A stretch of DNA of 64,000 bases from Thermosphaera sp. (GTDB taxonomy: Archaea; Thermoproteota; Thermoprotei_A; Sulfolobales; Desulfurococcaceae). Positions 1 to 38,078 of this stretch are shown here, one piece after another (within the stretch, counting starts at the first letter, position 1; each line of letters opens with the position of its first letter). Both the position numbers and the translations under genes were made by a program. The notes under the pieces are model-generated. The model was not told the DNA's origin, searched no databases, and saw only the letters and a list, made by a program, of their open reading frames with translations. The DNA lies in the NCBI GenBank assembly GCA_038827615.1, contig JAWBNK010000001.1, positions 372,290 through 436,289 of the forward strand, written 5' to 3'.

Positions 1-449
1 TTCCCGAGAAATATGGTTCCAGCCGAATTGCTCCTCACGTACTCTCCTCCTATTGAATCGAGAATATCTTTGATATACACTGCGTGTGTAAGGTAGAAAA
101 ACGATGTTGAAAAAACAGATGAAAGCCCTGTTGCAAACATCAACCGGGCTACTATTATGACATGTCTCCTGCGCATCCAGTTAGTGATTGCATTGAGACC
201 GAGGCTCAGCGTTATTAGCGCGTGAATGGTTATGGGGATACTTAGGCTTGCGGCTTTATCCAACTCGGGTATCTTCAAGGTGGTGTTATACATTCTCAAG
301 TAGTAAGAGGAAAATGACACGAATCCCTTGACTATGCCGTCGATAAAGTAGAGTGGCACTATCAGGATGAGAAGTATGATTATGCTAAACAAGATGGAAG
401 AGATGCCCGCTAAGAATTGATATGTTAACAAGGCTTCATCATCCTTCAA
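1..449 (-). CDS. Polytopic membrane protein, 3' part cut by the window edge
   Basis: The frame is open from a TTG at 449 to the left edge, so only about 149 N-terminal residues are visible. They contain hydrophobic stretches around residues 10-33, 70-85 and 95-112, separated by short polar loops (one with RRRH), as expected for a multi-spanning inner-membrane protein. No family was recognised. The proposed TTG start overlaps the stop of the signal peptidase gene by 11 bases and has a purine-rich GGGTGGGG just upstream, which suggests translational coupling. It is therefore the fourth gene of the surface-fibre-like operon that starts at 3625. Function unknown; a scaffold or export partner is only a guess. 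Confidence 0.6.
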   Translation of the reverse strand, partial: MKDDEALLTYQFLAGISSILFSIIILLILIVPLYFIDGIVKGFVSFSSYYLRMYNTTLKIPELDKAASLSIPITIHALITLSLGLNAITNWMRRRHVIIVARLMFATGLSSVFSTSFFYLTHAVYIKDILDSIGGEYVRSNSAGTIFLG

Positions 450-1554
450 GCTTCCCCACCCATGTGTAAACCCGGCGCGCGAAAACATAGCTTACTTCCA
501 CGTAAGTAGCCCCACCGCTTGTTTCACTAACGCTGATCTCCCTGGTCTCAAACGGCTCTAGGGTGAAACCCGGAAGGGTGTTCTCTTGGACTTTTAGCGA
601 GTATGCTCCTAGTCCAGCGGAGTAGACTCTTCTCAACCTCACGCCTAATATCTCTATGCGTCCAGGGCTTGGATTGTAAGCTATGATCCTTCCCTTGCTA
701 GCTGTGAAGACGGGATGATTCCACTCTACCACCACCGGGTATCTTCCCAGCAACACTCCTTTGTCTAGCTTGATCTTCACCTGTGCGATGAAGGCTGAGA
801 GATTAGAGTCTAAGAGCACTTCGTAAAACCCGTCAGGGGGCTGGATCACTATTTGATTATTTTCTGCCCGATACTCGGAGCATGGTGAGAAGATGTTTTT
901 CGCCACGAGGACGCATTCTTCAATGCTGACTATATTGAGGCCTGAGGGGACATAATCTATTACGATGGAAGTCGAGTTTGTCCTAGTTGAGAGCCTCACA
1001 AGGGCCACATCCGGCGGAACTATTCGAGTTGGATAAGGCGGTGTTTGAATGACGTAGATAGTTAAGAAAGCCAAATCCAGGATTAGCAAGGCTAAAAACA
1101 CAAACGTTTCAATGACGAAGGCTTGTTTCAAACCCTTCCAAGGCTTAATAGGGAAAAACATCAATGTGATCGATAAAACAACAAGTGGAAGCCAAATTAT
1201 CAGGGGGATGGAACTAACTACCTTGAATCTTATCAGCTCGACAGGGATTGGCGGGTCAACTGAAGGGTTATAGTCCCCTTTTGTGACGGCAGTTGTTGCG
1301 TTTATTTGTACTAGTCTGTGAACAATGCACGTGAACTCCTCTTTACAATAAATAACGATGTCCCCTGTTGAGATAGGCGTTAGAGATGAGGACACCCCTA
1401 CGACTAGGTCCCCTGGCTTAAGAGAAGGATACATGGAAAAACCCGAGACCGTGAACAACCCTAGAGGGGTGGGGAGGATTCTCGACCCGATGCTAAACCA
1501 AGTAATTAACACGATATAAGCAACCTGGATTAAGCGTTTCACCCAGTTTTTCAA
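439..1554 (-). CDS. Archaeal signal peptidase I (S26B, Sec11-like) with long exported C-terminal region
   Basis: The protein is a membrane-bound serine protease that would cut signal peptides from exported proteins. After an N-terminal membrane helix it shows the nucleophile motif SGFSMYPSLKPGD (Ser about residue 40), IVHRLV (His about 79) and TKGDYN (Asp about 94). This Ser-His-Asp set is typical of archaeal/eukaryotic Sec11 enzymes rather than the bacterial Ser-Lys dyad. Two further membrane helices (roughly 114-135 and 145-168) are followed by about 200 residues of beta-rich exported sequence, which is unusual for the family. The start is set to TTG at 1554: it forms a TTGA overlap with the upstream stop and lies behind GGAGGAG. 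An ATG 69 bases earlier would give a polar tail and no ribosome site. The neighbours suggest it is the dedicated peptidase of the surface operon. Confidence 0.85.
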   Translation of the reverse strand: MKNWVKRLIQVAYIVLITWFSIGSRILPTPLGLFTVSGFSMYPSLKPGDLVVGVSSSLTPISTGDIVIYCKEEFTCIVHRLVQINATTAVTKGDYNPSVDPPIPVELIRFKVVSSIPLIIWLPLVVLSITLMFFPIKPWKGLKQAFVIETFVFLALLILDLAFLTIYVIQTPPYPTRIVPPDVALVRLSTRTNSTSIVIDYVPSGLNIVSIEECVLVAKNIFSPCSEYRAENNQIVIQPPDGFYEVLLDSNLSAFIAQVKIKLDKGVLLGRYPVVVEWNHPVFTASKGRIIAYNPSPGRIEILGVRLRRVYSAGLGAYSLKVQENTLPGFTLEPFETREISVSETSGGATYVEVSYVFARRVYTWVGKLEG

Positions 1555-3026
1555 CCGGCTCCTCCTCCAGTGGAAGTGATCGTTATTGGGTTTGATACAC
1601 AAACAGTTTTTTCCGGGGAACAATACTCAAGAGAGAATACAGCAGTGTAGTCAGGACTCGGCGCCGACGATACAAGAGTAACGTTCAACCCCCCTCCCCC
1701 CATTTTCACGAACGAGGTGCTCCATGACATTATTTCGTTGTCTACAACGCGTATTGGCGTAGAGGAGTAGGAGTTCGACGTTATAGCAACCTCGAAACTA
1801 CAGACTCCACTGCTCTCCAGGCGGAGTAGGGAGAGTCTCACATCATACTCGCCTGCGTCAACAGGTATAACGCTTATGAGGCTAATACTCAGGTTATATC
1901 CCGTGATGTAAATATCGATGTAACCAGCCGTTCGCGTCGGGTCTACGAACCCATAGAAAGCATCCCCCGTTATTATGGAATACGTCTCCCCGCCTAGCAA
2001 GGGAGTCGACGTTTTAAGAACTACTACTCCGTAATTATTCTCAACTCTTATCTCCCCTCCATCGCCTACACCGATAACGTTATCAGTTACGACATTTACG
2101 CTCAAAGACTCGGCTACTGCAGTACCCTGTCCTACAAGCCTTCCCTCGTTATCGAAGACCCCTAGCCTTGCCCCCGGGTACAAGCCAGTGATCACTAGCG
2201 AGGTGGGATCATTCAGGGACAATATGAAGTCGTCGAAAACGGATTCCGCGCCATCCACCTCCAAACCCACGTATGCTACTTGAAACCTCCTACTACTCGA
2301 GCTCGTAGCTATCAGCGACCTAATCAACAAACCCTCCTCAGAGTATAGTTGCGCCCTTAGGTAGACCGCATCCGCCCTATACTCGTAGTAGACAGTGAGC
2401 GTATACCATTGAGGCGTGTAAGTGAATTGAGCAGAGAGGTTAAGCCTATTCCAACGGTTCGGAGTTTCCACTCTGTAACTCCAGATCTCCAACCATGCGG
2501 TGTTACCGGATCGTCTCACCGAGACCTCGTAAAGCCTGTCAAATTTGCTGTCTATAAAGGCCAACCCGGTGTATCCGCTTGTAGCTAAGTTCTTGAGTTT
2601 AACCGAGACGTAGAATTTAGGGTAAGAAGATACAGAGCTTGAGAAATAATATTGTGAAGCGCCCCCTATCCCCCCATCGTTGTCGACCCCGCGCACTCCC
2701 ATTCCTCTATGTCCGTTAGCGATGAGAATCCATGAACCACTACGTGAACTCCATTGTTGACTAGGTTGTTCAAAATCGCTCCAGGTTATCGTATTCGAGG
2801 AACTCTTCGAGAGACTAATTGGGATTAAGGGGCTTTCCAAAACCATCAAATGAACAGGGGGTTTTGATGTGGCCAGGTTAACACTAAGATAGTTGAAAAC
2901 GAAAAACAGAGAATCCAAACCAGTGAGAGTAAATATCAGGGCAGAAACAATGGGGAGAGCTTTAAGAATAACGATGGGAAAAAACGTTGAGGTTGAATTA
3001 CTCTTGACAATAGTTCTCCACCTCAC
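1551..3026 (-). CDS. Membrane-anchored surface protein with lectin-like beta domain
   Basis: A 491-residue exported protein. An N-terminal hydrophobic segment (about residues 15-50) is followed by SKPPVHLM, almost the same post-helix motif (SKPPVVFM) found in the upstream 200-residue protein. Residues about 85-270 have the aromatic/Gly pattern of a concanavalin-like beta sandwich (FEQPSQQW, GYTGLAFID, FDDFILSLND). The remainder is beta-rich and Thr/Ser/Val-rich, and the C-terminus lacks a clear membrane helix. The GTG start overlaps the previous stop as GTGA. The shared motif suggests that this and the small protein are processed or assembled in the same way; it could be a tip, anchor or minor subunit of a fibre. 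The family was not firmly recognised. Confidence 0.7.
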   Translation of the reverse strand: MRWRTIVKSNSTSTFFPIVILKALPIVSALIFTLTGLDSLFFVFNYLSVNLATSKPPVHLMVLESPLIPISLSKSSSNTITWSDFEQPSQQWSSRSGSWILIANGHRGMGVRGVDNDGGIGGASQYYFSSSVSSYPKFYVSVKLKNLATSGYTGLAFIDSKFDRLYEVSVRRSGNTAWLEIWSYRVETPNRWNRLNLSAQFTYTPQWYTLTVYYEYRADAVYLRAQLYSEEGLLIRSLIATSSSSRRFQVAYVGLEVDGAESVFDDFILSLNDPTSLVITGLYPGARLGVFDNEGRLVGQGTAVAESLSVNVVTDNVIGVGDGGEIRVENNYGVVVLKTSTPLLGGETYSIITGDAFYGFVDPTRTAGYIDIYITGYNLSISLISVIPVDAGEYDVRLSLLRLESSGVCSFEVAITSNSYSSTPIRVVDNEIMSWSTSFVKMGGGGLNVTLVSSAPSPDYTAVFSLEYCSPEKTVCVSNPITITSTGGGAG

Positions 3027-3625
3027 GGCGGGCTCTCAGTGTTTTGCGAGCTATATATGAGCTCTAACAGTATTGAGCCGCTTCCCGGGGGCGGCGTCTC
3101 ATAGCTACCGCCTTGCGTTGTGTAAACGAACTCGAAATCCATTCTCAACTCTCCTTCAGCGTTTAGAAGTATCCAGTTGTCTGGTTGCAACTGAGTCGTC
3201 AACAAGTCCACTGTTCCCACAAGGACGCCTCCCTCGTACAAGTAAATTCTTGCGGACGCGAGATTACCGCTTGTCACCGTCTCGGCAACCTTTACTTTAA
3301 CATAGTATGCGTTGTTAGGATCCTGGTTCCTTATTCTCAAAACATCCACATAGTAGGTCTTTTGATAGGTTGGGTGAAGGGTGAGAGACGCGCTCGTTCC
3401 AGTAGGATCTAATGTAACTTCAATAATCGCTCCGTAAAGGTCTCTCCCACCGCTGTTGCTTCCTTCCATGAACACGACGGGCGGTTTCGAGGGATTCACG
3501 TTGACTGCGGCAGGATAATACACGAACACGCTTGCGAAAGCTATGCTTACTAGTATTGTAGCAATGGTCATTCCTAGCATGAATCTTGAGGTTTTCACGA
3601 TCTCAAACCTCTTCAGAGGATCCAT
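3023..3625 (-). CDS. Candidate TasA/AbpA-like fibre subunit (small anchored beta protein)
   Basis: A 200-residue protein with a short basic N-terminus, one hydrophobic segment (about residues 15-37) and then PAAVNVNPSKPPVVFMEG, the start of a beta-rich, Tyr/Thr-rich domain (TLHPTYQKTYYVDVLRIRN). Length, single signal or anchor helix and beta-sandwich-like composition fit archaeal bundling pilins and bacterial TasA/camelysin, which are also encoded beside a signal peptidase; that assignment is inference. It is the first gene of the minus-strand operon, with a TATA-like TTTTTAAG about 20 bases before the ATG and a GGAG at a short distance. The other possibility is a lone surface protein of unknown role. 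Confidence 0.6.
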   Translation of the reverse strand: MDPLKRFEIVKTSRFMLGMTIATILVSIAFASVFVYYPAAVNVNPSKPPVVFMEGSNSGGRDLYGAIIEVTLDPTGTSASLTLHPTYQKTYYVDVLRIRNQDPNNAYYVKVKVAETVTSGNLASARIYLYEGGVLVGTVDLLTTQLQPDNWILLNAEGELRMDFEFVYTTQGGSYETPPPGSGSILLELIYSSQNTESPP

Positions 3626-3723: not shown

Positions 3724-4518
3724 TTGTCAAATAGCGTTGAGAAAATACTGGTCTTGAATGATTCATGTGGACTACTGTTTTCACCAACACTTATAAAAGC
3801 CATGGAGAGGATCAGGCTTGCCCATCTTAGAGAGCTCTTGGAGCTTGAGAGAATTGAGTATGCTGGGCAAACGATGAGAGATTTGGCCTCAGAAATATCT
3901 AAGGCGGGGGGCGATGAATACCTTTTCCTTGATTATAGGGATGAGGCAGGGGTAAACTGCCTGATCATATCGAAGGGGCGGGTAGTGCTTAACTTCGAGT
4001 GTCTCGGGATGGGGGAAGATATCGATAAACAACTCGCCGCTCTAGCTGGATACTGTACGAAGGGGAAGGGAGATCTCAGAGTTTACAAGGTTAAGCCGAT
4101 ATTCATTGAGTGGAGTGAGAGATACAAGTTTGGGATAAGAATACTTGATCAAGCACATGAAGAAATGTTCATGAATTTCCAAAAGGTTTTCACCGCTATT
4201 ATCGAAGGAATGGTCGACGAGGTTACGGGGCTTATAAAAAACGCCTATGAATCCGTTAAAAAGCATTTCGAGATCGAGGAGAATTTAATGGTTAAATATA
4301 ATTATCCTAAAAGCAAGCGGAAAGACCATGAAACAACTCACGCCGAGTTTAAAACTGTTGTTGAAAACTTGGTCAAGGCTGCTGAAGAAGGAAGGTTCCT
4401 CGAGCTTTATATTCAGCAGTATCAATTCCTAATTACCTATTTGGATTACATGCTTAAGGAAGACAAGGAGTTTATAACTTTCTTACTTGAAAAATGCGGG
4501 GAGAATTGTAGCCCTTAA
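3724..4518 (+). CDS. Hemerythrin-domain protein with unknown N-terminal domain
   Basis: The C-terminal half (about residues 128-255) is a bacteriohemerythrin, a four-helix di-iron O2-binding domain: IEWSERYKFGIRILDQAH (His145), HFEIEE (His181, Glu185), DHETTH (His202, His206) and Asp247. The position of the last histidine ligand, five residues before Asp247, is Tyr242 here, so one canonical iron ligand appears replaced. The N-terminal 120 residues (with GGDEYLFLDYRDEAG) are an alpha/beta domain I do not recognise; such fusions usually couple O2 or redox sensing to a partner. No membrane segment is visible, so it is cytoplasmic. TTG start behind GAGGG. It sits between two surface operons but on the opposite strand. 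Confidence 0.85.
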   Translation: MSNSVEKILVLNDSCGLLFSPTLIKAMERIRLAHLRELLELERIEYAGQTMRDLASEISKAGGDEYLFLDYRDEAGVNCLIISKGRVVLNFECLGMGEDIDKQLAALAGYCTKGKGDLRVYKVKPIFIEWSERYKFGIRILDQAHEEMFMNFQKVFTAIIEGMVDEVTGLIKNAYESVKKHFEIEENLMVKYNYPKSKRKDHETTHAEFKTVVENLVKAAEEGRFLELYIQQYQFLITYLDYMLKEDKEFITFLLEKCGENCSP

Positions 4519-4802
4519 TCCTTCTTCTCCTCTTGTTTTACCTCCTTTTCCAACTTTTTGAGTTCTTCCTCTATCTCCTTCTCTATCTCCTCTATGGGCT
4601 TCGGGGGAGGAGTTGTTGCCAGGGTATAGCCGATCCATCCAAGTATTCCGAAAACTCCGATGACGGCTATCATTAACGTCAGCTGCATTAGGACTAAACT
4701 ATAATCGGTCATAAATAATACGTATCCATACAGTATGATAATAATGATGGAGACAGCCATCAGAAGCCATCCGATTGTCTGGTCCTTGCTCAATTTTAAC
4801 AC
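4515..4802 (-). CDS. Small two-helix membrane protein with charged tail
   Basis: A 95-residue protein with two hydrophobic helices (about residues 8-30 and 35-60), a Pro-rich hinge (TTPPPKP) and a C-terminal Glu/Lys-rich amphipathic helix (EEIEKEIEEELKKLEKE) likely to form a coiled coil in the cytoplasm. It converges on the hemerythrin gene with a 4-base overlap of stops and lies 37 bases beyond the DUF1616 gene on the same strand, so it may be the last gene of the archaeosortase operon or have its own promoter. No family recognised. Confidence 0.65.
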   Translation of the reverse strand: MLKLSKDQTIGWLLMAVSIIIIILYGYVLFMTDYSLVLMQLTLMIAVIGVFGILGWIGYTLATTPPPKPIEEIEKEIEEELKKLEKEVKQEEKKD

Positions 4803-4839: not shown

Positions 4840-5364
4840 CTAACTCAGGCTTTTGTACGACCTGTACAATCCTATCATTGAGAAGGTTAGGGTAGATATT
4901 GCAATGCTTATCGTCACCGGGACTAGTCTAATACCCCATGGAGTGTAATTGAGGACAAGCCCTATTAAGGGAACTAGTGCAAGACTTAACCCGATTGAGA
5001 GAGCGAATTCTTCCAGCGGACGGAGGGACCTATCGGGATAGAGTGCCTTCAGCAGGGAGTATCCAGGTAGGAACAAGACGAAAACGCTTCCAAGCACGTA
5101 TCTTGCAGGCGACGAGACTCTGTAATATTCGGTGAGTAGGACTAGTATTACTGTTGCGACTGTCAAGCCGGTTAAACTGTAAAACCAGGTCGAATAATCC
5201 GCTCGCGAGACGAACTCTGCGAAACTCTTTGGTTTCTCAGGGTCCTCGATTTCGAGCCTACCCTCCACCCATTCCCTATACAAATCTACTAGAAATCCAA
5301 GGTAAGCCCATTTTCCGAGCTTCTTTTCGTTAACGTATTCCTCTAGAGTTTCTTTACTGCTCAG
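4840..5364 (-). CDS. DUF1616 membrane half-protein; probable CTG start
   Basis: This is the membrane half of the archaeal DUF1616 family. A polar N-terminus (LYREWVEGRLEIEDPEKP) is followed by four hydrophobic helices with the family signature LGSVFVLFLPGY and SIGLSLALVPLIGLVLNY. The visible ATG/GTG/TTG option is TTG at 5283 (147 residues), but the frame continues upstream in a coherent polar helix (SSKETLEEYVNEKKLGKW) back to a CTG at 5364. That CTG overlaps the previous stop as CTGA and lies 6 bases behind GAGGTGAT, exactly the arrangement of its neighbours. I therefore propose 174 residues from CTG. The external half of the family is encoded by the preceding gene. Function unknown; the family often sits near surface or exopolysaccharide genes. 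Confidence 0.8.
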   Translation of the reverse strand: MSSKETLEEYVNEKKLGKWAYLGFLVDLYREWVEGRLEIEDPEKPKSFAEFVSRADYSTWFYSLTGLTVATVILVLLTEYYRVSSPARYVLGSVFVLFLPGYSLLKALYPDRSLRPLEEFALSIGLSLALVPLIGLVLNYTPWGIRLVPVTISIAISTLTFSMIGLYRSYKSLS

Positions 5365-5849
5365 GGCAGAATCACCTCTGTAACATTTAATCTAAGGAAC
5401 ACGTATCTCCCTGTATACTCCCAAAGCCCTGAATCAGGGTTGTAATAGTACAGTTCACAGACAAGTGTTTGATTCAACTTAGGATTTCTAAAAACAATTG
5501 TTAACGGTATTGTCTTGTTCTCTTTGTGAGGTAGAATGATGAAGCCCTCGTTTAAAACCTTTTTTCCAGTTAAAGGAGATTTTTCATTTGGTATCTCGCC
5601 GTCGCCTTCTTTAACCTGGTACTTGAAGAGTGCGGTGTAGCCAAGATGGTTGTATATGAATAAATTCAGCTTGACCTCCTGCCCGACAAACACCGTTGAA
5701 GGATACTCCCCAATTTTACCCTCCTCGTTAAGAAGTCCAAGAGCGGTGAAAGGCTCATCCATGCGCGGGATGGCAAGGGCTACTCCGATCGCAGACCCAA
5801 CGATCGTTATTGCTAATATTACTGCGAAAACCTCTTCGTCAAGTATCAC
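5361..5849 (-). CDS. DUF1616 external half-protein
   Basis: A 162-residue protein: one N-terminal membrane helix (about residues 8-27), then an external beta domain with PRMDEPFTALGLLNEEG, GEYPSTVFVGQEV and LFIYNHLGYTA. This is the pattern found in the C-terminal half of full-length DUF1616 proteins (EPFTE...YPT...VGEE...NHE). Here it is a separate gene placed before the membrane half, i.e. in reversed order relative to the fused protein. GTG start in a GTGA overlap with the DUF58 stop; its own stop overlaps the next start. It probably pairs with the 4840-5364 product in the membrane. Confidence 0.75.
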   Translation of the reverse strand: MILDEEVFAVILAITIVGSAIGVALAIPRMDEPFTALGLLNEEGKIGEYPSTVFVGQEVKLNLFIYNHLGYTALFKYQVKEGDGEIPNEKSPLTGKKVLNEGFIILPHKENKTIPLTIVFRNPKLNQTLVCELYYYNPDSGLWEYTGRYVFLRLNVTEVILP

Positions 5850-7480
5850 CGTACCTCCCTCATCAGCTTACTAATCATGTAACGTAAATCCGGGACCTCC
5901 TTAATGCGTATATCTGTTAATCCAAATTTAGAAAAGTTTTGAGCAATAATATGGTATTTCAAGTGATACGCCTTAGGATGGATCAATATGAACCCTGACT
6001 TCTTGGGGACTCTTTCTTCGAGGAACGTGAGGAGAGATATCGCGTAGCTCATATAATAATCCAACAGCTCTCTCCAAGCCTTTACATCGGATTCTCTCTC
6101 AATATTTAACCTGGGACGGTCGAGAGTTTCATAGTTAAATCTCGCCTGCACCTCCTCTAACAAAAGTATTTCGTTGAGAACTTGTATAATTTGTGTTAGA
6201 CTTCCGCGAGTGAAAATCGTCGTCCCGCTTGGGAGCCTTAGAAGAAGGAAAATTTCCCTCTGGACTGCAAACAAGGCTGCATAAGTAGCCCTTATCAACG
6301 TATCCAGTTCAATAGGGTTGGACGCATCCCAATCGGCTACTATTACACCCCCTCCACCGCCTCCTCCCGGTTCAGGAGATTTTGAAAAGGTTTTTACGAT
6401 TAATTCCCCTTTGCTCACGCTTTTCTTCCAATGAATGCTCCTCGGATGATCTCCAGGCAAGTACTCTCTAGCCCCCTCGTACTCTCCTGTTGTAGTCCGG
6501 GAGGCTGAGTAACCGAGCTCTCTTAATGGGGTGTGAAAAAGTGAGAGGGTGAAAATGATTTTGCCTTCAGCGGAGACTTCCCTTAAACCTTCAATCCCTT
6601 TGCCTGTTTCCACCGCCCCCTTACCGACTCCATGTTCTCTTTCAATAATCTCCTCCTCACCCACTGTCAAGCCTTTTGCGGAACCCCACCGTTGGACAAC
6701 GAGCCAGACGGGGGGTGGAGTGGTAGTATAGTAGTATTTTCCAAGTATCTCCTTGAAAGTTCTTTGAATCACCGAGGATTTAGGTGTGACTTTAACCTTC
6801 AATACCTGTGGAGCGAGGCGTATTTTAGAGTATCCGCGAGGATCAGATATCTCGATGATTACATTATATTCATGTAATCCCGCTAGTCTTGGAGAGAACC
6901 TCAACTCTATCACTCCGCCTTTGTCTCGGAAACCTTTACTGAGGGTCTTGTTGTTTACTGTGACCTTATACGCGAATGCGGAGTCGGAGAGGATATCCAA
7001 ATGGAATACAGCGTCTTCACCAAGTAGGATCGACTGGGTTTTTTCTCTAAGCAAAACCTTTATTCTCGACAACCTCAAGTACTCTCTGAAGCTCACTATT
7101 GTGGAAATAGAGAGGTATATTGTAGTGGGAATCAACGAGGGTGGGTTAACTAGGTACACCGGGGTTAAAACACCGGCTGTAATGAAAGAATCCCAGAGCT
7201 TGGACTTCTCGGAATACTCAACGATTAAGGGTGTTGATGCATGAACTATTAGCAGTGCCAGAGTCGTTAGAAGTAAAACGGCAGGGTTAGCCACAAAGCA
7301 GGAAGCGCTCCATGCAAGAACTACCACATCATACAATTCCCTCTTAACGTAGTAAAGTAGGGATGAAAAAATAAGCCCTATTATTGAGTAGAAAAGGTTT
7401 CCGGTGATGTAAGATGATATCATAGATGAAAAGAACATCAAGCCAGCGAGGTAGTGTGAGCTATTCCCTGCTACGCGCAT
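5846..7480 (-). CDS. DUF58 membrane protein
   Basis: DUF58 proteins accompany MoxR ATPases in membrane-protein or envelope maturation systems and carry a von Willebrand-like fold. Four or five hydrophobic helices fill residues 1-130, an external-type beta domain follows, and the diagnostic motif YEGAREYLPGDHPRSIHWKK is at about 334-353. A run of seven glycines at 372-378 precedes VIVADWD. The last 150 residues are alpha/beta and cytoplasmic in type. ATG start, 20-base overlap with the upstream gene. MoxR is encoded upstream in the same operon, which supports the family call. Confidence 0.88.
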   Translation of the reverse strand: MRVAGNSSHYLAGLMFFSSMISSYITGNLFYSIIGLIFSSLLYYVKRELYDVVVLAWSASCFVANPAVLLLTTLALLIVHASTPLIVEYSEKSKLWDSFITAGVLTPVYLVNPPSLIPTTIYLSISTIVSFREYLRLSRIKVLLREKTQSILLGEDAVFHLDILSDSAFAYKVTVNNKTLSKGFRDKGGVIELRFSPRLAGLHEYNVIIEISDPRGYSKIRLAPQVLKVKVTPKSSVIQRTFKEILGKYYYTTTPPPVWLVVQRWGSAKGLTVGEEEIIEREHGVGKGAVETGKGIEGLREVSAEGKIIFTLSLFHTPLRELGYSASRTTTGEYEGAREYLPGDHPRSIHWKKSVSKGELIVKTFSKSPEPGGGGGGGVIVADWDASNPIELDTLIRATYAALFAVQREIFLLLRLPSGTTIFTRGSLTQIIQVLNEILLLEEVQARFNYETLDRPRLNIERESDVKAWRELLDYYMSYAISLLTFLEERVPKKSGFILIHPKAYHLKYHIIAQNFSKFGLTDIRIKEVPDLRYMISKLMREVR

Positions 7481-8294
7481 GAAGCATCACCACCACTATT
7501 ATGACTGCCAGGACTCCGGCGAAAACGATATTTCCCTGTCTTAATGCCAGGAACCTCAGGTTTTCAAAAGGTTTACTGAATGGCGTTGTTTGATCGATGT
7601 ATAGAACCCTTTCTTTCCTTAAACACTCGAGGAATTCCTTGTTAAACTCAACCAGGTCATTTGTGAAGACCCTGGTTGAAAGGATGAAGAACACGACTCC
7701 ATCATGGTATTTGTAAAGTATCCCAACGGGGAAAACCCTTATTGGCTCACCTAGGTCTAAAAACCCGTTTCCATTTGAATCTAAATATGAGAAGGGGGAG
7801 GTTTCGATCAAAACATTTTCTCCGCTCAAGTCAGAAGCATACGGCTTCCACAGTGAAACATTGCAATTGCAAACTCTGCTGTAACCTACAGGTTTGAAAC
7901 GGTCTCCCCGGTTGTATACCATGTCGTAAACTGTTTTACCGCTCGATACATGCTTCAACCCAAAAGCCTCTGCAATAGAATTCATGTATGACGGGTCACC
8001 CGTGACTATTAAAACGCCCCCTCTCTCTACAAAAACCGCTAGGTTCTCGGCGACCCTAGGGGAGGCTGGGCCGGTATTAGAGGTTATAATGATTGAAGTC
8101 GAAGGATCCACGGATGAGAACTCAGAAGGGTTTACTACGATTTTTCCATTAAACTCCCTCACGAGTTTTGAGAACCCAGTATCCCCCTCATTGAAAACCG
8201 AATATTCAATTGTTGAGGGAAAGACGATAATGCTGGCTGCTCCGAGGAGAGTCGAAACGGAAAGGATTAAGACTAAGTAATCAGCCATTCTCAT
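7461..8294 (-). CDS. DUF4350-like membrane protein
   Basis: A 277-residue protein with an N-terminal helix (about 4-22) and a C-terminal helix (about 250-270) enclosing an external alpha/beta domain. The core has NLAVFVERGGVLIVTGDPSYM, the glutamine-amidotransferase-like pattern of DUF4350 proteins, which in bacteria are found beside MoxR, DUF58 and DUF4129. SYLDSNGNGFLDLGEPI resembles a calcium-binding dockerin-like loop (Asp-x-Asn-x-Asn-Gly). The gene overlaps both neighbours (14 and 20 bases), so it is part of one transcript. The family assignment comes from the pattern and context, not from a search. Confidence 0.6.
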   Translation of the reverse strand: MRMADYLVLILSVSTLLGAASIIVFPSTIEYSVFNEGDTGFSKLVREFNGKIVVNPSEFSSVDPSTSIIITSNTGPASPRVAENLAVFVERGGVLIVTGDPSYMNSIAEAFGLKHVSSGKTVYDMVYNRGDRFKPVGYSRVCNCNVSLWKPYASDLSGENVLIETSPFSYLDSNGNGFLDLGEPIRVFPVGILYKYHDGVVFFILSTRVFTNDLVEFNKEFLECLRKERVLYIDQTTPFSKPFENLRFLALRQGNIVFAGVLAVIIVVVMLHARSRE

Positions 8295-10071
8295 AGTTCA
8301 ACACCTCCTCGACGAGCTCGTCCGCTTCTTCAATCTTTGGCTTTATCTTTCCATATAAATCCCTTTCGGCAAGGAGGAGCAGTTTTCGCAATATTTTTTT
8401 CAGTCCAGTACTAAGGGAGATTCGATCAAAGTGTTCCCTGAGAGTTTCAGCAATTCGGGGCGGATCAATGTTAAGCTTGTTTAAAGTCTCATAGTATATC
8501 TTAGCTATTAGCGACTTAGTCTCTAGGAGTCCTTTGAAATCACTAGTCTTCTCTGATTCTTGCCTAAGGGTTCCTCTGTTCCTCAAGGTCTTAATGTAGA
8601 AAGTGAAGACGGCCTCCCTCCTTCTAACAAACATGAATGCGAGTGTAAGTCCGTAACCCCAGATCACTGTTAATGATGGATTTATTATAAATAATGTAAA
8701 TCGTTCCTCGCAAACATCAAAACTGGGGTTTTCGGGTGTTGCAACGATGCGGATCTCAGAGCTAATTACTGGTACCCATGGAAAGCTTATCTCTGCTTCG
8801 ATGGATTGAGAAGTGTTCGTTTCTAATTCAACTCTTTGGGGCCTAACGATAGATATTTTGACTGGTAGAGAGGAAGGGTCTTCGAGTATTATTCTGAGTC
8901 TTATAGAGTTATGAAGAGTGGTTATGATTAAAGGGGTTTCAAGATGAATCGGTATTCTCTTTCTTGCTATTATTGCCGAGGATGTTATGTTTGCTGGTAG
9001 GGAAGCCTCGGTCATTTCCACACTTAATGTAATAGTTACCAATCCGGCCGAAGTATTGGAGGGATCTAGTGTGAGCACAACCTCGCGTTGCCCGGGAGTG
9101 AGGTTCAAGCTCGCTATCAAGCTGTTGTTGATAAATAATCTTCCAAAATACACGCCGTTAGACTGTATCTTTATTTTCAAAGAATCTCCCATGTATGCTA
9201 ATGGCGGATCTATCGTCATGTAAACCATGGGCTTACTCAACCTTAATTTAAAGAATTTAATCCCAACCACTTGCGAACCGTTTAAAGAACCCCTAGTTAT
9301 TATTAAAAGGTTGTTGTCCTCCTGAAGGCTTCTTAAATCAACCCTATTGCTCAGCTCATATAGAGATGGGATCTGAAACCATCCAGAATAATATCCCTCC
9401 TGGGGAATAAGTAACCCCTTTCCAATGATTTCGAATGTAGGCCAAAGAGCTATTTGAAACTCGTTCTGCATGATAATCTCCTTCTCCACCACGGAAATAT
9501 TGGCGTAGATGATATCTCCTGGCGAGAAGGAGAGTTTGTTAAGGCTTATCGATATAAAGTTCGATGCCCACGTCTCTGAGCTTACTAGCTCAATTAGTAT
9601 AGGGATTTTCTCCAGAACACTTTTGGCATGTATTGATGTTAAAGAGTTGATCGTCGAGAATAGCGTTTGATCGTTTATACAACTGCTTAACTGAACCATA
9701 TACGCCTTGACTGCATCTTCGAACCGGGCGTAAAACTCGCGTAGATTTGCCACTATTTCTAGTGGAGTTTTACTGACGTTTTTGCCGTGAATGTATTCTA
9801 CGCCTTCTAAATAGTTTAATAAGTAATTATATGTCTTAACGTGCCTTGATCTTAGCGGCTCTGGGAGGTTGATCCTTACCAGAATGCTTATTTCATCTCT
9901 TACACTGTAATCATCAGCGCTAACGCGTTCTAGCACGTTCCTCAACATTATTCCCAGAAACCTGCAGTCAACCTTTTCGTCAATTCCCTCAGCGGTAGCG
10001 CCATAACATAAAGCGGCGCACGCCATCATCAAGATCGATAAGGCAATAAAAAAGCGTGAGCTCCTTCTCAT
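8281..10071 (-). CDS. Exported protein with DUF4129-like cytoplasmic tail
   Basis: A 596-residue protein with a signal peptide (residues 1-25, ending near CYGATA) and a helical segment of about 150 residues. A set of immunoglobulin-like beta domains (about 190-460) precedes one membrane helix (about 465-482). A basic cytoplasmic region ends in a helical domain (KIYYETLNKLNIDPPRIAET, then a long Leu-rich helix) that resembles DUF4129, the C-terminal domain of TgpA-like proteins in MoxR-DUF58 clusters. The external part would bind or present a substrate, the tail would meet the MoxR/DUF58 machine; this is inference. No transglutaminase motif is present. It overlaps the next gene's start by 14 bases. 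Confidence 0.6.
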   Translation of the reverse strand: MRRSSRFFIALSILMMACAALCYGATAEGIDEKVDCRFLGIMLRNVLERVSADDYSVRDEISILVRINLPEPLRSRHVKTYNYLLNYLEGVEYIHGKNVSKTPLEIVANLREFYARFEDAVKAYMVQLSSCINDQTLFSTINSLTSIHAKSVLEKIPILIELVSSETWASNFISISLNKLSFSPGDIIYANISVVEKEIIMQNEFQIALWPTFEIIGKGLLIPQEGYYSGWFQIPSLYELSNRVDLRSLQEDNNLLIITRGSLNGSQVVGIKFFKLRLSKPMVYMTIDPPLAYMGDSLKIKIQSNGVYFGRLFINNSLIASLNLTPGQREVVLTLDPSNTSAGLVTITLSVEMTEASLPANITSSAIIARKRIPIHLETPLIITTLHNSIRLRIILEDPSSLPVKISIVRPQRVELETNTSQSIEAEISFPWVPVISSEIRIVATPENPSFDVCEERFTLFIINPSLTVIWGYGLTLAFMFVRRREAVFTFYIKTLRNRGTLRQESEKTSDFKGLLETKSLIAKIYYETLNKLNIDPPRIAETLREHFDRISLSTGLKKILRKLLLLAERDLYGKIKPKIEEADELVEEVLNYENG

Positions 10072-10322
10072 TTCACAATGACCTCTGAGATTCTAATACT
10101 TATTATAAGAATGAATAATGTGATTAAAGTCGCATGAAGAAGTTTCACGGGCAGAGCAGTACGCGGAAACGGTTTCACCAGCGCATACGATATGTAAAAG
10201 CATAATATATTTAGAGCTATGAAAGCATCTACTCTTTCTTCTCCTAGAAGAAGCAAAGCGGAGTTGAACAATGTAACCAAGGATACATACGTGATTAAAA
10301 ATGTCGAATATCTAGCGTTCAT
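10068..10322 (-). CDS. Small three-helix membrane protein
   Basis: An 84-residue, very hydrophobic protein with three probable helices (about residues 8-28, 32-50 and 60-80). It overlaps both neighbours by 4 bases (ATGA type), so it belongs firmly to the MoxR/archaeosortase operon. No family recognised; small membrane partners are usual in such clusters. Confidence 0.65.
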   Translation of the reverse strand: MNARYSTFLITYVSLVTLFNSALLLLGEERVDAFIALNILCFYISYALVKPFPRTALPVKLLHATLITLFILIISIRISEVIVK

Positions 10323-11005
10323 GGCTGATCAACCACTTGGTAGATCAGCTCCATTGAGTCTGGCGAGGAGGTCTGGCGAACAAGTTTTACAGAGTTATTA
10401 ACAAGTCTTGCAACCACTATACTTGTGATGATATTTGACATATTAATCGGATATTTAGCCTGGTCCTTCACGAACTCTGGAAGACCCTCCATTAATACCC
10501 TTATAATGGATCCATTTACATTAACCTTTACTCTCTCGCATAGACCCAGCTCGTCTGCCAATACTTCGAGAAGCGATGATTCGAGATCTGCTTGCTGATC
10601 TGTTGCCGTGGAAGTGTTCTCTAGGATGCTGGCTGTAGGAATAGTGAATACGGGCTGTCCCATTTGAACAGAGAGCCCGGGATATGGTTGTGGAGGGATA
10701 TAGCTTTTTGAAACGACGACATAGTAATTACTCGGGGTTTTCAACACGGATATTTTCCCATCTAGCAAATCAGCCTCTTCAATAATCGTAGTTAGGCAAC
10801 TAGTAGCTAGCTTGGCGTACTCTTGGAGAACGTTCAAGAAGTTTTCAGTAGTCGTGAAGCTGGAGTACATGATCGTTAAGCCGACTACAACGATTGACGC
10901 TGATACCCCTGTGAGACCTGAATCGCCGTATGTGACTGAATACAGCAAAAAGACCGTAGATATGAGTATTATTGAGAGGCCTAGTCCGAAAAGGCGCTTG
11001 TTCAA
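10319..11005 (-). CDS. Membrane-anchored protein of the MoxR operon
   Basis: A 228-residue protein with two N-terminal helices (about 5-23 and 33-52) followed by a soluble alpha/beta domain (ATSCLTTIIEEADLLDGKIS; SNYYVVVSKSYIPPQPYPG; LADELGLCERVKV). The short loop between the helices places the soluble part on the cytoplasmic side, where it could contact MoxR. ATG start, 4-base overlaps with both neighbours. Not assigned to a family; it is likely specific to this type of cluster. Confidence 0.65.
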   Translation of the reverse strand: MNKRLFGLGLSIILISTVFLLYSVTYGDSGLTGVSASIVVVGLTIMYSSFTTTENFLNVLQEYAKLATSCLTTIIEEADLLDGKISVLKTPSNYYVVVSKSYIPPQPYPGLSVQMGQPVFTIPTASILENTSTATDQQADLESSLLEVLADELGLCERVKVNVNGSIIRVLMEGLPEFVKDQAKYPINMSNIITSIVVARLVNNSVKLVRQTSSPDSMELIYQVVDQP

Positions 11006-11652
11006 ACAAACACCCCTGGGATGGTGATTTTAAACACCACGTCTATCGCTATGTAGTCTATCTTTTTAAAGTCCTTGAGATAAAGGACTACTTTTATGAT
11101 TGATGCAGTGATATTATAAATCAGGAATGTGTTTGACACATAGAAAACGGGGGATAGGCTCAAAGCCGCCGCGAACAAGGCCTGCGAAAATAAAACTCTT
11201 GGCTGATAACCATGCAGGCTAGCTAGACTTCTACCGGCGAGGGAGTCCATTAATGCTAGAAGGACGAATCTTGCAGGGGTGGAGCATCCGACGAGACTGC
11301 TTATGAAGGCGCTTAAAAGTATCAATGGTGGTGTTGCATAGGTAAACAAACCTCTTAGAACAGGCATGTCCCAGAACAAAACTGTTAATGTAAAGAATAA
11401 AATTATTAATGATAGATCTTGCAGTAGACTATCTAAACCTAAATAATTGAATATTAAGTAGGAGAGGGCCGTCCAGAAGAGGGGAGTGTAGTAACTAACA
11501 TACTCGCTTGGAGTTTTGAATAAAACCATATAGTTGACCGCGAATATGATCATCATTAACGTTAACACCATAATTAGAAGAACCTGATTAAACATTAATG
11601 TGAGGATGTCGATGATTATGATGGATAAAGCTATCAATACTAACTCGATCAT
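11002..11652 (-). CDS. Polytopic membrane protein of the MoxR operon
   Basis: A 216-residue protein made almost entirely of hydrophobic helices (about six), with short loops and no recognisable catalytic motif. It starts 4 bases after the MoxR stop and its stop overlaps the next gene, so co-expression is near certain. It may be a membrane platform of the system; no family recognised. Confidence 0.68.
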   Translation of the reverse strand: MIELVLIALSIIIIDILTLMFNQVLLIMVLTLMMIIFAVNYMVLFKTPSEYVSYYTPLFWTALSYLIFNYLGLDSLLQDLSLIILFFTLTVLFWDMPVLRGLFTYATPPLILLSAFISSLVGCSTPARFVLLALMDSLAGRSLASLHGYQPRVLFSQALFAAALSLSPVFYVSNTFLIYNITASIIKVVLYLKDFKKIDYIAIDVVFKITIPGVFV

Positions 11653-11656
11653 TATC

Positions 11657-12598
11657 TCACTTTGGAACCGGCACTTTGTTCAATGCTTCATCAATGATCG
11701 AATCGATGTTAATCCCCTCCAGTTCGTATTCCTCCTTGATTCTTACCCGGTGTGATATCACGGGATCTGCTAGCTTCTTCACATCATCCGGTATTACATA
11801 ATCTCTATTATCCATTAAGGCATACACTCTGCTTACCCTCATCAAGTGAATGCTTGCACGATGAGAAGGACCGAATGCGACAGCCTCATGGCTTCTCAAG
11901 TATCCTATTAGTGACGCGATATAGTTCACAATCAGCTTATCCACGTGTATTAATTGGGGGAGCGAGGCGGCAACCTGTACAAGCTCCTGGGGCTTAGTAA
12001 CTTGGTCTATGGGGAGCTCCAAGATTACATCCGATTTTTCAATTATTTCCTCTTCTTCCTCTATGGGGTTATAATAGCTCTTGATAGATGTTGCGAACCT
12101 ATCTAGGAGTGTTTCGAGGACTTGGTATGGTGCCGTCGCCAGTTTCGTCGGAACCTGTGTCCCTATGACCATGAAGGGTTTAGGTAGAGGGTATCTCACC
12201 CCATCAACAGTGACCTGGTTCTCTTGCATAGCTTCCAGCATGGCGGATTGTGAACGGGTTGGCGCCCTATTAAGCTCGTCAAATAACAAGATGTTCGAGA
12301 ACACGGGTCCTTTGACGAACTCCCTAGACCCGTCAAGTCTGTAGATGTGAAAACCGAGAATATCCGATGGGAGAATATCAGGGTGTCCTTGGATGCGCGC
12401 GTATTCTCCCCCAATAGCTTTCGCCAGCGCTTTTCCGAGAAGGGTCTTTCCAGTGCCTGGATACCCCTCTATGAGCAGGTGTCCGTTTGCGACGAGAGTT
12501 GCTACGGATAGCTTCACTATCTCCTCTTTGCCCACATATACTCTCCTTATCTCTTTCACCACTTCGTTTACCAGTGATCTAGCGCTGTCGAAATCCAA
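11657..12598 (-). CDS. MoxR-family AAA+ ATPase
   Basis: The MoxR chaperone-like ATPase would use ATP to remodel or activate membrane or exported proteins. Visible: Walker A GYPGTGKT (45-52), Walker B LLFDE (104-108), sensor region MVIGTQVP, the helix-2 insert region with Met-rich AMLEAMQE, and the C-terminal lid with FGPSHRAS. At 313 residues the length is normal. The gene lies 7 bases after the archaeosortase stop and 4 bases before the next gene, in the middle of the operon with DUF58, DUF4129-like and DUF4350-like genes, the classical partners of MoxR. Confidence 0.95.
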   Translation of the reverse strand: MDFDSARSLVNEVVKEIRRVYVGKEEIVKLSVATLVANGHLLIEGYPGTGKTLLGKALAKAIGGEYARIQGHPDILPSDILGFHIYRLDGSREFVKGPVFSNILLFDELNRAPTRSQSAMLEAMQENQVTVDGVRYPLPKPFMVIGTQVPTKLATAPYQVLETLLDRFATSIKSYYNPIEEEEEIIEKSDVILELPIDQVTKPQELVQVAASLPQLIHVDKLIVNYIASLIGYLRSHEAVAFGPSHRASIHLMRVSRVYALMDNRDYVIPDDVKKLADPVISHRVRIKEEYELEGINIDSIIDEALNKVPVPK

Positions 12599-12605
12599 GG
12601 AGTAC

Positions 12606-14276
12606 TCACCGGCGGCTCTTTCGCCACGTATTTATGATAAGAGAAGTGACCATTATTAAAAAGTATGCGATCGCACTTATCGTTGTTACATAGTAAGCCA
12701 GGGTAGCGTAATGTAGCATTTCAAATTTTGTCGGAGAACTACCTCCCGAAGTAATCCATAAGGATGAAAACAACCTGACCGCCTCGTTTTCAACGATATC
12801 GGTATTCGAAGCAGGAATTGGCGCGAAGATGGATAGCCTGAAATATATTGGGATGTTTTCACCCTCCACCTTAATCATCACCTTTCTTAGAACATAAGAG
12901 AGCAGGTAATGATTTACGCCATCCCATACCCGTATGAAACTGATGGACTCCCCCTCGATACTTCTTGTCCAGGAATCAACAATCTTGAATCCTTGTAACG
13001 TTAGGCAGAACTGCCAAGTATGTAGCCGCGCCGGAGTATCCACTATTTCAATATATCCAGTGTAGGTGACGCTTTTGTTTACTAAAAACGTGATTCTGAA
13101 CACTTTCAAAGCTCCTAAGACCCTTGTTAAAAAATCATCGTAACTCTCTTTGACAAAGGTCACATCCGAAGAGTTGAGGAGGTATTTGGATGGACTGTTA
13201 AGAAGGTCGTTGAGGCTATCTACTAAGATCTCTGCCTCGTTATTTGGATACGTGCTCACAGCCTCCACGTGCTTTAGGATGCCCATGTATGTGATAGATA
13301 TAGTCATTGCTAATAGAAGGGAGGCTATCATCACTCGCGGGCTAACTCCTTCTATATGAAGCGGAATTTTAAATTGAAAAACCCTGGGCCCCAGGATTTT
13401 CCTGATGATGACTACAGCAGTTGCTGCTGACACAGACGCATATATTATAGAGGGTGAATAGTGAAATAGCGTCAAACCGGTCTCTGGATCAATCAGCTTT
13501 ACAGCAATTATCACTAAAATTACTCTGAGAACGTTTCCCGCGAACCCGATTAGAAGTGAGGTCAGGAGAGAGGCCACTGATGCGTAAACCTTTTTCCTCG
13601 CGCCTCCGGTTGATGCAACAGTTAAGTAGAGAAGAATCGGAAAAACCGATAAAATGGTAGAGATCGTAACGATTCCAGTACACGCGACCTCAACACTGAG
13701 GGATACGGATCCCTTATGTGTTTCAACTACTATTTGAGAGAACCCGGGGCCCTCAACATACATGGACCCCGTAGTAAAAGCAGCGACCCAACCGACCACC
13801 CTTGATAAAGGCGGAGTGAAACTGTCTATGATGAAAGTAGGGATGGGCGTTAGGAAGAATATTGATGCAAGGGGGATCAGATCCACGGGCCTGTTTGGAT
13901 CGTACACCAAGATCACGAGTGATAGAAAAAGCCATGAAAAACTGAAACCCAGAAGTTGCATCTGCAATTCAATCACGAGGTACGAGGTCAAGTAAAAGAT
14001 GAGGGAAAGCGAGATAAAACACAGCGATAGTATAATTTTACTTATGCGCACGCTGTAGGAGAAACCAACTTGTCGTAGACTCAAGTAGAGCGTGTTTATA
14101 GTGGATACTATTACGGGAATGAGATAGCTATATTCCTCCACGAGCATGAGCTTGGTTATACCTTGAGAGTAGTTTTTGTAAATAGTTGTTAGGAAAAGGG
14201 AGAGTATCATCATGATTATGGAGAATCCTATAGTGACGTTCGCCCTGTATCTTAAAACTTCTTCTACTCTCGACAT
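12606..14276 (-). CDS. Archaeosortase/exosortase-like enzyme fused to an EpsI-like external domain
   Basis: Archaeosortases are membrane transpeptidases that process C-terminal sorting signals of surface proteins. Residues 1-330 hold about eight to ten hydrophobic helices and the three expected catalytic sites: Cys199 in EVACTGI, Arg251 in AGNVLRV and His272 in LFHYSPS. Residues about 330-515 are external and include LHTWQFCLTLQGF (Trp421, Cys424), VWDGVNHYLLSYVLR and LSIFAPIPAS, resembling EpsI/DUF3485, the exosortase partner that is sometimes fused to the enzyme in bacteria. One last helix (about 523-545) anchors the C-terminus. It is the first gene of the operon before MoxR, with a TATA box 20-25 bases before the ATG, so translation may be leaderless. 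The enzyme call is strong on the Cys/Arg/His set; the EpsI part is inference. Confidence 0.8.
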   Translation of the reverse strand: MSRVEEVLRYRANVTIGFSIIMMILSLFLTTIYKNYSQGITKLMLVEEYSYLIPVIVSTINTLYLSLRQVGFSYSVRISKIILSLCFISLSLIFYLTSYLVIELQMQLLGFSFSWLFLSLVILVYDPNRPVDLIPLASIFFLTPIPTFIIDSFTPPLSRVVGWVAAFTTGSMYVEGPGFSQIVVETHKGSVSLSVEVACTGIVTISTILSVFPILLYLTVASTGGARKKVYASVASLLTSLLIGFAGNVLRVILVIIAVKLIDPETGLTLFHYSPSIIYASVSAATAVVIIRKILGPRVFQFKIPLHIEGVSPRVMIASLLLAMTISITYMGILKHVEAVSTYPNNEAEILVDSLNDLLNSPSKYLLNSSDVTFVKESYDDFLTRVLGALKVFRITFLVNKSVTYTGYIEIVDTPARLHTWQFCLTLQGFKIVDSWTRSIEGESISFIRVWDGVNHYLLSYVLRKVMIKVEGENIPIYFRLSIFAPIPASNTDIVENEAVRLFSSLWITSGGSSPTKFEMLHYATLAYYVTTISAIAYFLIMVTSLIINTWRKSRR

Positions 14277-14367: not shown

Positions 14368-14817
14368 TTATTTAACTCTTGACCTCTTGACGATCCATTT
14401 CCTTCTTGTTTTAAACCAGACCAGGGCCCAGACTCGCGGGAGGAACACGTATGTTAGAATAGGTATTGAGATTAAACCTAATATTGTTACGGTTACTTCT
14501 AGGTTTCTCCAGAAGATGAAACTAGGATAATTCTCCTCTAATCTATCAATAAATATCCCAGCCAGGGTGAGATTACCTGTAATCCACTCTTTTTCCTCAA
14601 TAGTTAGTTCGCCTTTATTCAGCAGGCTGAGGGCGTTGCTAATGTATTGTTCGGCCTCAGAAGTGTTCATTCCAACGATACTTAGTTTTTTCAATCTTCT
14701 AGCGTAGGATTCTATGATTGATAAATATTCTTGTTCATCACTGGTTACCTCTTCCCGGGGCAGGTAGGCGGAGATGCTACCGAGCAATATTAGACATAAT
14801 AGTATACCCCGTATCAA
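14368..14817 (-). CDS. Small exported membrane-anchored protein
   Basis: A 149-residue protein with a signal peptide (about 1-17), a helical external stretch (SIIESYARRLKKL; EAEQYISNALSLL), one membrane helix (about 108-128) and a strongly basic cytoplasmic end (RRKWIVKRSRVK). The single C-terminal helix plus basic tail is the general shape of a sortase-type substrate, but the consensus of known archaeosortase signals (PGF) is not seen. It lies 91 bases upstream of the archaeosortase gene on the same strand. TTG start after AAGGG. Function unknown. Confidence 0.6.
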   Translation of the reverse strand: MIRGILLCLILLGSISAYLPREEVTSDEQEYLSIIESYARRLKKLSIVGMNTSEAEQYISNALSLLNKGELTIEEKEWITGNLTLAGIFIDRLEENYPSFIFWRNLEVTVTILGLISIPILTYVFLPRVWALVWFKTRRKWIVKRSRVK

Positions 14818-37978: not shown

Positions 37979-38078
37979 GCCGCCGTAGCTCAGCCCGGTG
38001 GAGCGCCGGCCTTGTAAGCTTTTGTGTTAGGCCCGTCGAGAAAGCCGGTGGTCGCGGGTTCAAATCCCGCCGGCGGCT
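37979..38078 (+). tRNA. tRNA-Thr (TGT) with a 26-base intron
   Basis: The acceptor stem GCCGCCG pairs with CGGCGGC, followed by discriminator T and no encoded CCA. The D arm is GCTC...GAGC, the anticodon stem CCGGC/GCCGG has loop CTTGTA-A giving anticodon TGT (38013-38015), and the T arm is GCGGG-TTCAAAT-CCCGC. The stretch 38017-38042 interrupts the loop between positions 37 and 38, the usual archaeal intron site, so maturation needs the splicing endonuclease. Mature length about 74. It reads threonine ACA codons. Confidence 0.95.

Follow-up and report, generated by a model that had tools for sequence, protein, structure and literature searches.

Why should a gene for an archaeosortase-like enzyme stand within a MoxR-DUF58 gene cluster, and is it there as an enzyme? 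The question is raised by a locus of Thermosphaera sp., contained in the 64,000 nucleotide stretch of DNA that was analysed (the window). In the original prediction, ten overlapping genes were linked into one set, in which a sorting enzyme took the place of the transglutaminase-like protein of bacterial clusters. The set was proposed to be an ATP-driven machine for the anchoring or maturation of surface proteins. The sortase-like protein, here called Art, is best read as an exosortase-EpsI fusion that a MoxR-DUF58 envelope machine has taken up as a subunit.

The block of genes exists as described; it is conserved, and its arrangement is not a product of chance. All ten open reading frames were found on the minus strand, running from 14276 to 4840 (Table 1). 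They are packed tightly, and most of them overlap by 4-20 nt. An eleventh member of the cluster, M149, had been absent from the original prediction. In other genomes it lies between the genes for DUF58 and DUF1616C. After its C-terminal transmembrane (TM) segment follows a conserved tail, LPRxYxYxWFKxRRKWxV.

Table 1. Genes of the cluster and adjoining members, with positions in the window and the basis for each assignment.
Feature	Position	Strand	Basis
M149: signal peptide, helical, C-terminal TM, basic tail	14368..14817	-	alignment A4
Art: exosortase/archaeosortase, 556 aa	12606..14276	-	PF09721 2.8e-11; alignment A1; AF2 model
MoxR AAA+ ATPase, 313 aa	11657..12598	-	AAA_3 2.1e-42, AAA_lid_2 1.5e-21
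M216, multi-TM membrane protein	11002..11652	-	no family match; recurs after MoxR, 19 loci
M228, N-terminal two-TM hairpin, then soluble domain	10319..11005	-	no family match; 36 loci
M84, three-TM protein	10068..10322	-	recurrence in cluster order; TM prediction
DUF4129-like protein	8281..10071	-	PF13559 matches of homologues; alignment A2; AF2 pLDDT 77; Foldseek
DUF4350 protein: signal, extracellular domain, C-terminal TM	7461..8294	-	PF14258 1.5e-8
DUF58-like protein, TM pair at N-terminus	5846..7480	-	PF01882 0.0042 (below cut-off); family invariants
DUF1616 C half: one TM, extracellular beta domain	5361..5849	-	PF07760 2.5e-9, profile positions 157-285
DUF1616 N half: four TM	4840..5364 (probable CTG start; TTG start 5283)	-	PF07760 1.7e-29
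M95, small three-TM protein, downstream	4515..4802	-	recurs beside some clusters (L037, L042, L050)

The family names of several products had been inferred from patterns. Profile matches bear out DUF4350 and the two-part DUF1616. The DUF58 name is less secure, since the match of the window protein falls below the Pfam cut-off. The family invariants G332, Y334, G336, R338, Y340, G343, D344 and I349-HWKKS are kept, and the protein is presumably a vWA-like adaptor. The DUF4129-like protein has no Pfam match of its own, and its name comes only by way of its homologues, 6 of 16 of which match PF13559 (best 1e-7). It is laid out as a signal, a helical domain, tandem Ig/macroglobulin-like beta domains outside the membrane, a TM segment at about 465-493, and a cytoplasmic helical C-terminal domain with an invariant P-x3-ETLRE motif. 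Foldseek matches of its AF2 model are to A2ML1/complement MG and SbsC domains. For the N half of DUF1616, the probable start codon is a CTG at 5364, which overlaps the TGA stop of the C half, and not the called TTG, because the homologous N-terminus extends upstream of the latter.

Art matches Exosortase_EpsH (PF09721) with 43.7 bits against a cut-off of 25.7. It narrowly misses TIGR04178 (22.7 against a cut-off of 23), which 14 of 19 homologues match at the search threshold. Cys199, Arg251 and His272 are all present in the window protein, so that its description as archaeosortase-like holds. Since the active site is intact, Art is probably still catalytic in this species.

The multi-TM exosortase core of Art is followed by a TM segment, an EpsI-related domain (residues about 345-515) and a C-terminal TM segment. 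The EpsI-related domain, of about 170 residues, was missing from the earlier description, and the positive-inside rule predicts that it lies outside the membrane. It has an invariant Trp (W436) and a conserved LHxWxxCLxxQGY motif. The AF2 model, which is of moderate confidence (pLDDT 68, pTM 0.66), shows it as a beta-alpha domain. It aligns with the C-terminal domain of bathyarchaeal exosortases of about 690 residues (hhalign E 5e-8). One bathyarchaeal relative matches EpsI/DUF3485 (PF11984) at 4.9e-5, below the cut-off, and the C-terminal domain of window-type Art proteins has no PF11984 match. A sequence search of the PDB with the sortase alignment gave no match and thus no solved relative by sequence. 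Foldseek with the Art model gave nothing below 1e-3; the best matches of the C-terminal domain, a weak hint, are to DcrB/PA94/EagT6/PsbP-like folds. Several of the bathyarchaeal exosortases (L156-L171) also carry a zinc-ribbon-like stretch after the core.

Comparison of gene neighbourhoods across the taxonomic order shows that the arrangement Art-MoxR-M216-M228-M84-D4129-D4350-DUF58-M149-DUF1616C-DUF1616N recurs, with variations, in several families. A search with a closer alignment gave seven named loci, and named loci from Thermosphaera and Thermogladius metagenomes have the same cluster. The window genome (G000, 1.36 Mb) contains one exosortase. Homologues of Art occur in 27 of 117 genomes of the order, and homologues of the DUF4129-like protein in 35, a more distant second cluster type included. 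By a count from neighbourhood maps, Art adjoins cluster genes in about 24 of the 27. The Art and D4129 profiles occur together in 23 of 26 cluster genomes versus 4 of 91 others (Fisher p about 3e-17, with the relatedness of the genomes ignored). MoxR and the sortase are thus far from being rare companions, and the linkage drawn between them in the original prediction is upheld.

The cluster also varies in other respects. For instance, DUF4350 and DUF58 are fused in one protein of about 800 residues at L030, L035, L049, L050, L051 and L052. A recurrent neighbour module, found beside DUF1616 or the cluster (L045, L050, L119, L123), consists of an ABC ATPase of about 220 residues, a MacB/FtsX-like protein and a membrane protein of about 505 residues.

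The original prediction counted on conservation of the Cys/Arg/His set in homologues, and this holds only in part. In an alignment of all homologues, the set is intact in about two thirds, the window included, and is not conserved in about a third. Cys is missing in seven lineages (G077, G085, G019, G098, G031, G086 and G391). In the last three of these most of the catalytic core is gone, while the N-terminal helices and the C-terminal domain are kept, in or beside the cluster. Elsewhere Cys is kept and both Arg and His are lost (G080), or His alone is lost (G091, G049), which may matter less. On a tree of 39 MoxR sequences with ultrafast bootstrap, the Cys-less state corresponds to seven changes, at least six of which are forced by supported branches. 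When the whole triad is followed, with absence of the gene included, a quicker tree gives 12 changes.

The degenerate copies, several of which come from fragmented metagenome assemblies, are uninterrupted frames of 439-558 residues that keep the C-terminal domain. In a PF09721 search of eighteen genomes, those with a degenerate Art had no other exosortase that passes the cut-off; the match in G098 is the same gene. One Cys-less pair (G077 and G451, from one genus and 87% identical) is under purifying selection, with dN 0.063, dS 0.236 and a ratio of 0.27 over the 243 N-terminal codons of a gene that is cut off by a contig end. That Cys-less form is therefore constrained. Because the copy in G077 is about 300 kb away from the cluster, the ratio speaks for constraint and not for participation in the machine. 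When close relatives were sought for the Cys-less gene of G085, only the gene itself came up.

One tentative proposal, with a chance somewhat short of even, is that in an AAA+ envelope machine the archaeosortase fold has many times, and independently, become a subunit that is structural and no longer catalytic. The copies would then form a pseudo-sortase family, with stages from an intact site to the loss of most of the catalytic core, the EpsI-like domain being retained. The repeated losses could equally be a sign that Art is turning dispensable. This may be the first case of archaeal pseudo-sortases; no earlier report was found in a mostly open-access literature search.

A predicted system with much of this gene content is already described. 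Section 3.2 and Table 2 of Makarova, Galperin and Koonin (2015, PMC5898192) present an arCOG01314-associated system, predicted to act in secretion or membrane remodelling. Like the present cluster, it includes DUF4350 (arCOG01314), a MoxR/GvpN ATPase, an Ig-vWA protein (the DUF58 match here being below the cut-off), an Ig-like exported protein, DUF1616 (pfam07760) and small membrane proteins. The main text and table of that paper name no exosortase, whereas in the present clusters an exosortase-EpsI protein is frequent as a clade-specific component. The cluster adds a variant with a sortase to the system already predicted, and of most interest is the series of pseudo-sortases. Systems of the MoxR-DUF58 kind are widespread; in the literature consulted they are predicted systems without an assigned client. 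Since one and the same machine stands beside sortases that are active, inactive or core-deleted, or has none, nature offers a comparative experiment on the function of both the machine and the EpsI-like domain. To our knowledge, the secretion or membrane-remodelling activity of the arCOG01314 system is a prediction of the literature that has never been demonstrated experimentally.

Two known systems are close to Art itself. Exosortase/EpsH with a fused EpsI (Haft 2006, PMC1569441) likewise has an EpsI-like region at the C-terminal end of an eight-TM exosortase. It differs in that here no PEP/VPE-CTERM substrate set was found in the genome and no EPS locus adjoins; Art is instead linked to MoxR-DUF58, and several of its members are without an active site. 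Archaeosortase A of Haloferax (PMC7157517) has a homologous exosortase core, and its C-terminal processing and lipid anchoring are a model for the active form. Here, in contrast, no PGF tripartite signals were identified, an extra EpsI-like domain is present, and the gene is linked to MoxR-DUF58.

The best explanation as a whole, to which a probability of about one half is given, is an arCOG01314-type envelope machine with an exosortase-EpsI subunit that combines catalysis with a non-catalytic role. In this model, a cytoplasmic MoxR hexamer would act on a membrane complex of M216, M228, M84 and DUF1616, with the DUF58 protein and the cytoplasmic tail of the DUF4129-like protein as intermediaries. 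The complex would carry the exported domains, namely the Ig/macroglobulin-like domains of the DUF4129-like protein, DUF4350, DUF1616C and M149. An analogy is offered by NorQ/NorD, RavA/ViaA and CbbQ/CbbO (PMC9976466), in which a MoxR hexamer and a vWA adaptor remodel a client. By analogy with NorQ/NorD, MoxR would use ATP to act through the vWA-like domain of DUF58 on a membrane client. NorQ/NorD is cytosolic and has a known client, whereas the DUF58 partner here is predicted to be membrane-anchored.

In one clade, the exosortase-EpsI fusion would have joined this complex as a membrane subunit. The window Art most likely still acts on the C-terminus of a single exported protein or a few of them, by cleavage or transfer. 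Its retention with the machine would be due to a non-catalytic role of the membrane helices and the extracytoplasmic EpsI-related domain, because the active site was lost repeatedly while the gene and the cluster stayed.

Art may instead be simply an active archaeosortase, served by the MoxR-DUF58 machine in an ATP-driven maturation or anchoring of surface proteins. This is possible, although on the unlikely side. The many intact sites agree with it, and so do the bathyarchaeal relatives (L156-L171), which share the core and C-terminal domain with Art. Their neighbours are a flippase, a glycosyltransferase, in several cases the N domain of DUF1616, and exported proteins that end in a VPE-TM-basic tail of the sorting type; no MoxR-DUF58 cluster appears in the stretches read. 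These neighbourhoods are likely to be a sorting/glycan system, and such neighbours make it probable that the ancestral protein was a genuine sorting enzyme. The intact Art of G003 has a VIPD-TM-basic protein nearby, and the only strong match to a profile of the VPE tails in that genome is the neighbour that went into building it. The profile finds further members in bathyarchaeal genomes and none at E<=1 in G000, G071, G083, G041, G105 or G422. Likewise, about 460 kb of the window genome (about one third) contain C-anchored exported proteins but no common tail motif. A close relative in the genus of the window (G071) is very probably Thermosphaera aggregans, which has no detectable S-layer (PMC3035292). 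For surface-protein anchoring as originally predicted, the tail searches turned up no substrate in this genome, and S-layer anchoring as the sole role is weakened. Loss of the site in at least six independent lineages that kept the cluster, and the existence of clusters without Art, also count against this account. A substrate within the cluster is very improbable. Both DUF4350 and M149 have a signal peptide, a C-terminal TM segment and a basic end, but DUF4350 is fused in frame to DUF58 despite an intact Art (L049, L050, L051, L052), and conservation of the M149 tail does not depend on whether Art is intact.

It is also conceivable, though doubtful, that Art is a neighbour and not a subunit, an independent sorting enzyme whose place in the locus is a matter of history and which is now disappearing bit by bit. 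Some complete clusters have no Art at all (L117 and L118; genomes G009 and G041), and therefore the machine does not require the sortase. In G030, Art is only a relic with an in-frame TGA, and G101 has a second copy outside any cluster, in addition to the distant copy of G077. Contact with cluster genes in most genomes that have Art argues the other way, as do the long frames and kept C-terminal domain of degenerate copies and the dN/dS ratio of 0.27. An exosortase-EpsI subunit with both a catalytic and a non-catalytic role is the reading preferred here.

The transglutaminase comparison can be settled from the neighbourhoods. Transglutaminase-like (PF01841) genes are present in 23 of 30 genomes tested, and none is near the cluster; the Art-free clusters L117 and L118 are likewise without one. 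The sortase therefore does not fill a place left by a transglutaminase, and this part of the original prediction is rejected. A second MoxR cluster of the window genome, at about C1:54.7-60.7 kb (L203 9735-15666), has no transglutaminase nearby either, and is followed by TasA-like genes.

Just beyond the cluster, at 439-3625 (-) of the window, two exported proteins (200 and 491 aa) are encoded whose N-termini have in common an SKPPV stretch after the TM segment. With them is a signal-peptidase-like protein with a G-x-SM-x-P motif, and the whole set resembles TasA-like filament/SipW sets. Apart from the second MoxR cluster, only the clusters of the window, L037 and L054 were seen to have TasA-like or signal-peptidase genes nearby; because of this limited occurrence, they are not general partners of the machine. 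Adjoining the cluster on the opposite strand, at 3724-4518 (+), is a gene for a protein whose C-terminal region is hemerythrin-like (HEEMF and HFEIEE motifs); a homologue of the protein also lies beside the sortase relic of G030 (L034). Farther away, at 37979-38078 (+), Rfam detects a tRNA gene (59.6 bits) that was missed by ARAGORN; it is 100 nt long and probably contains an intron.
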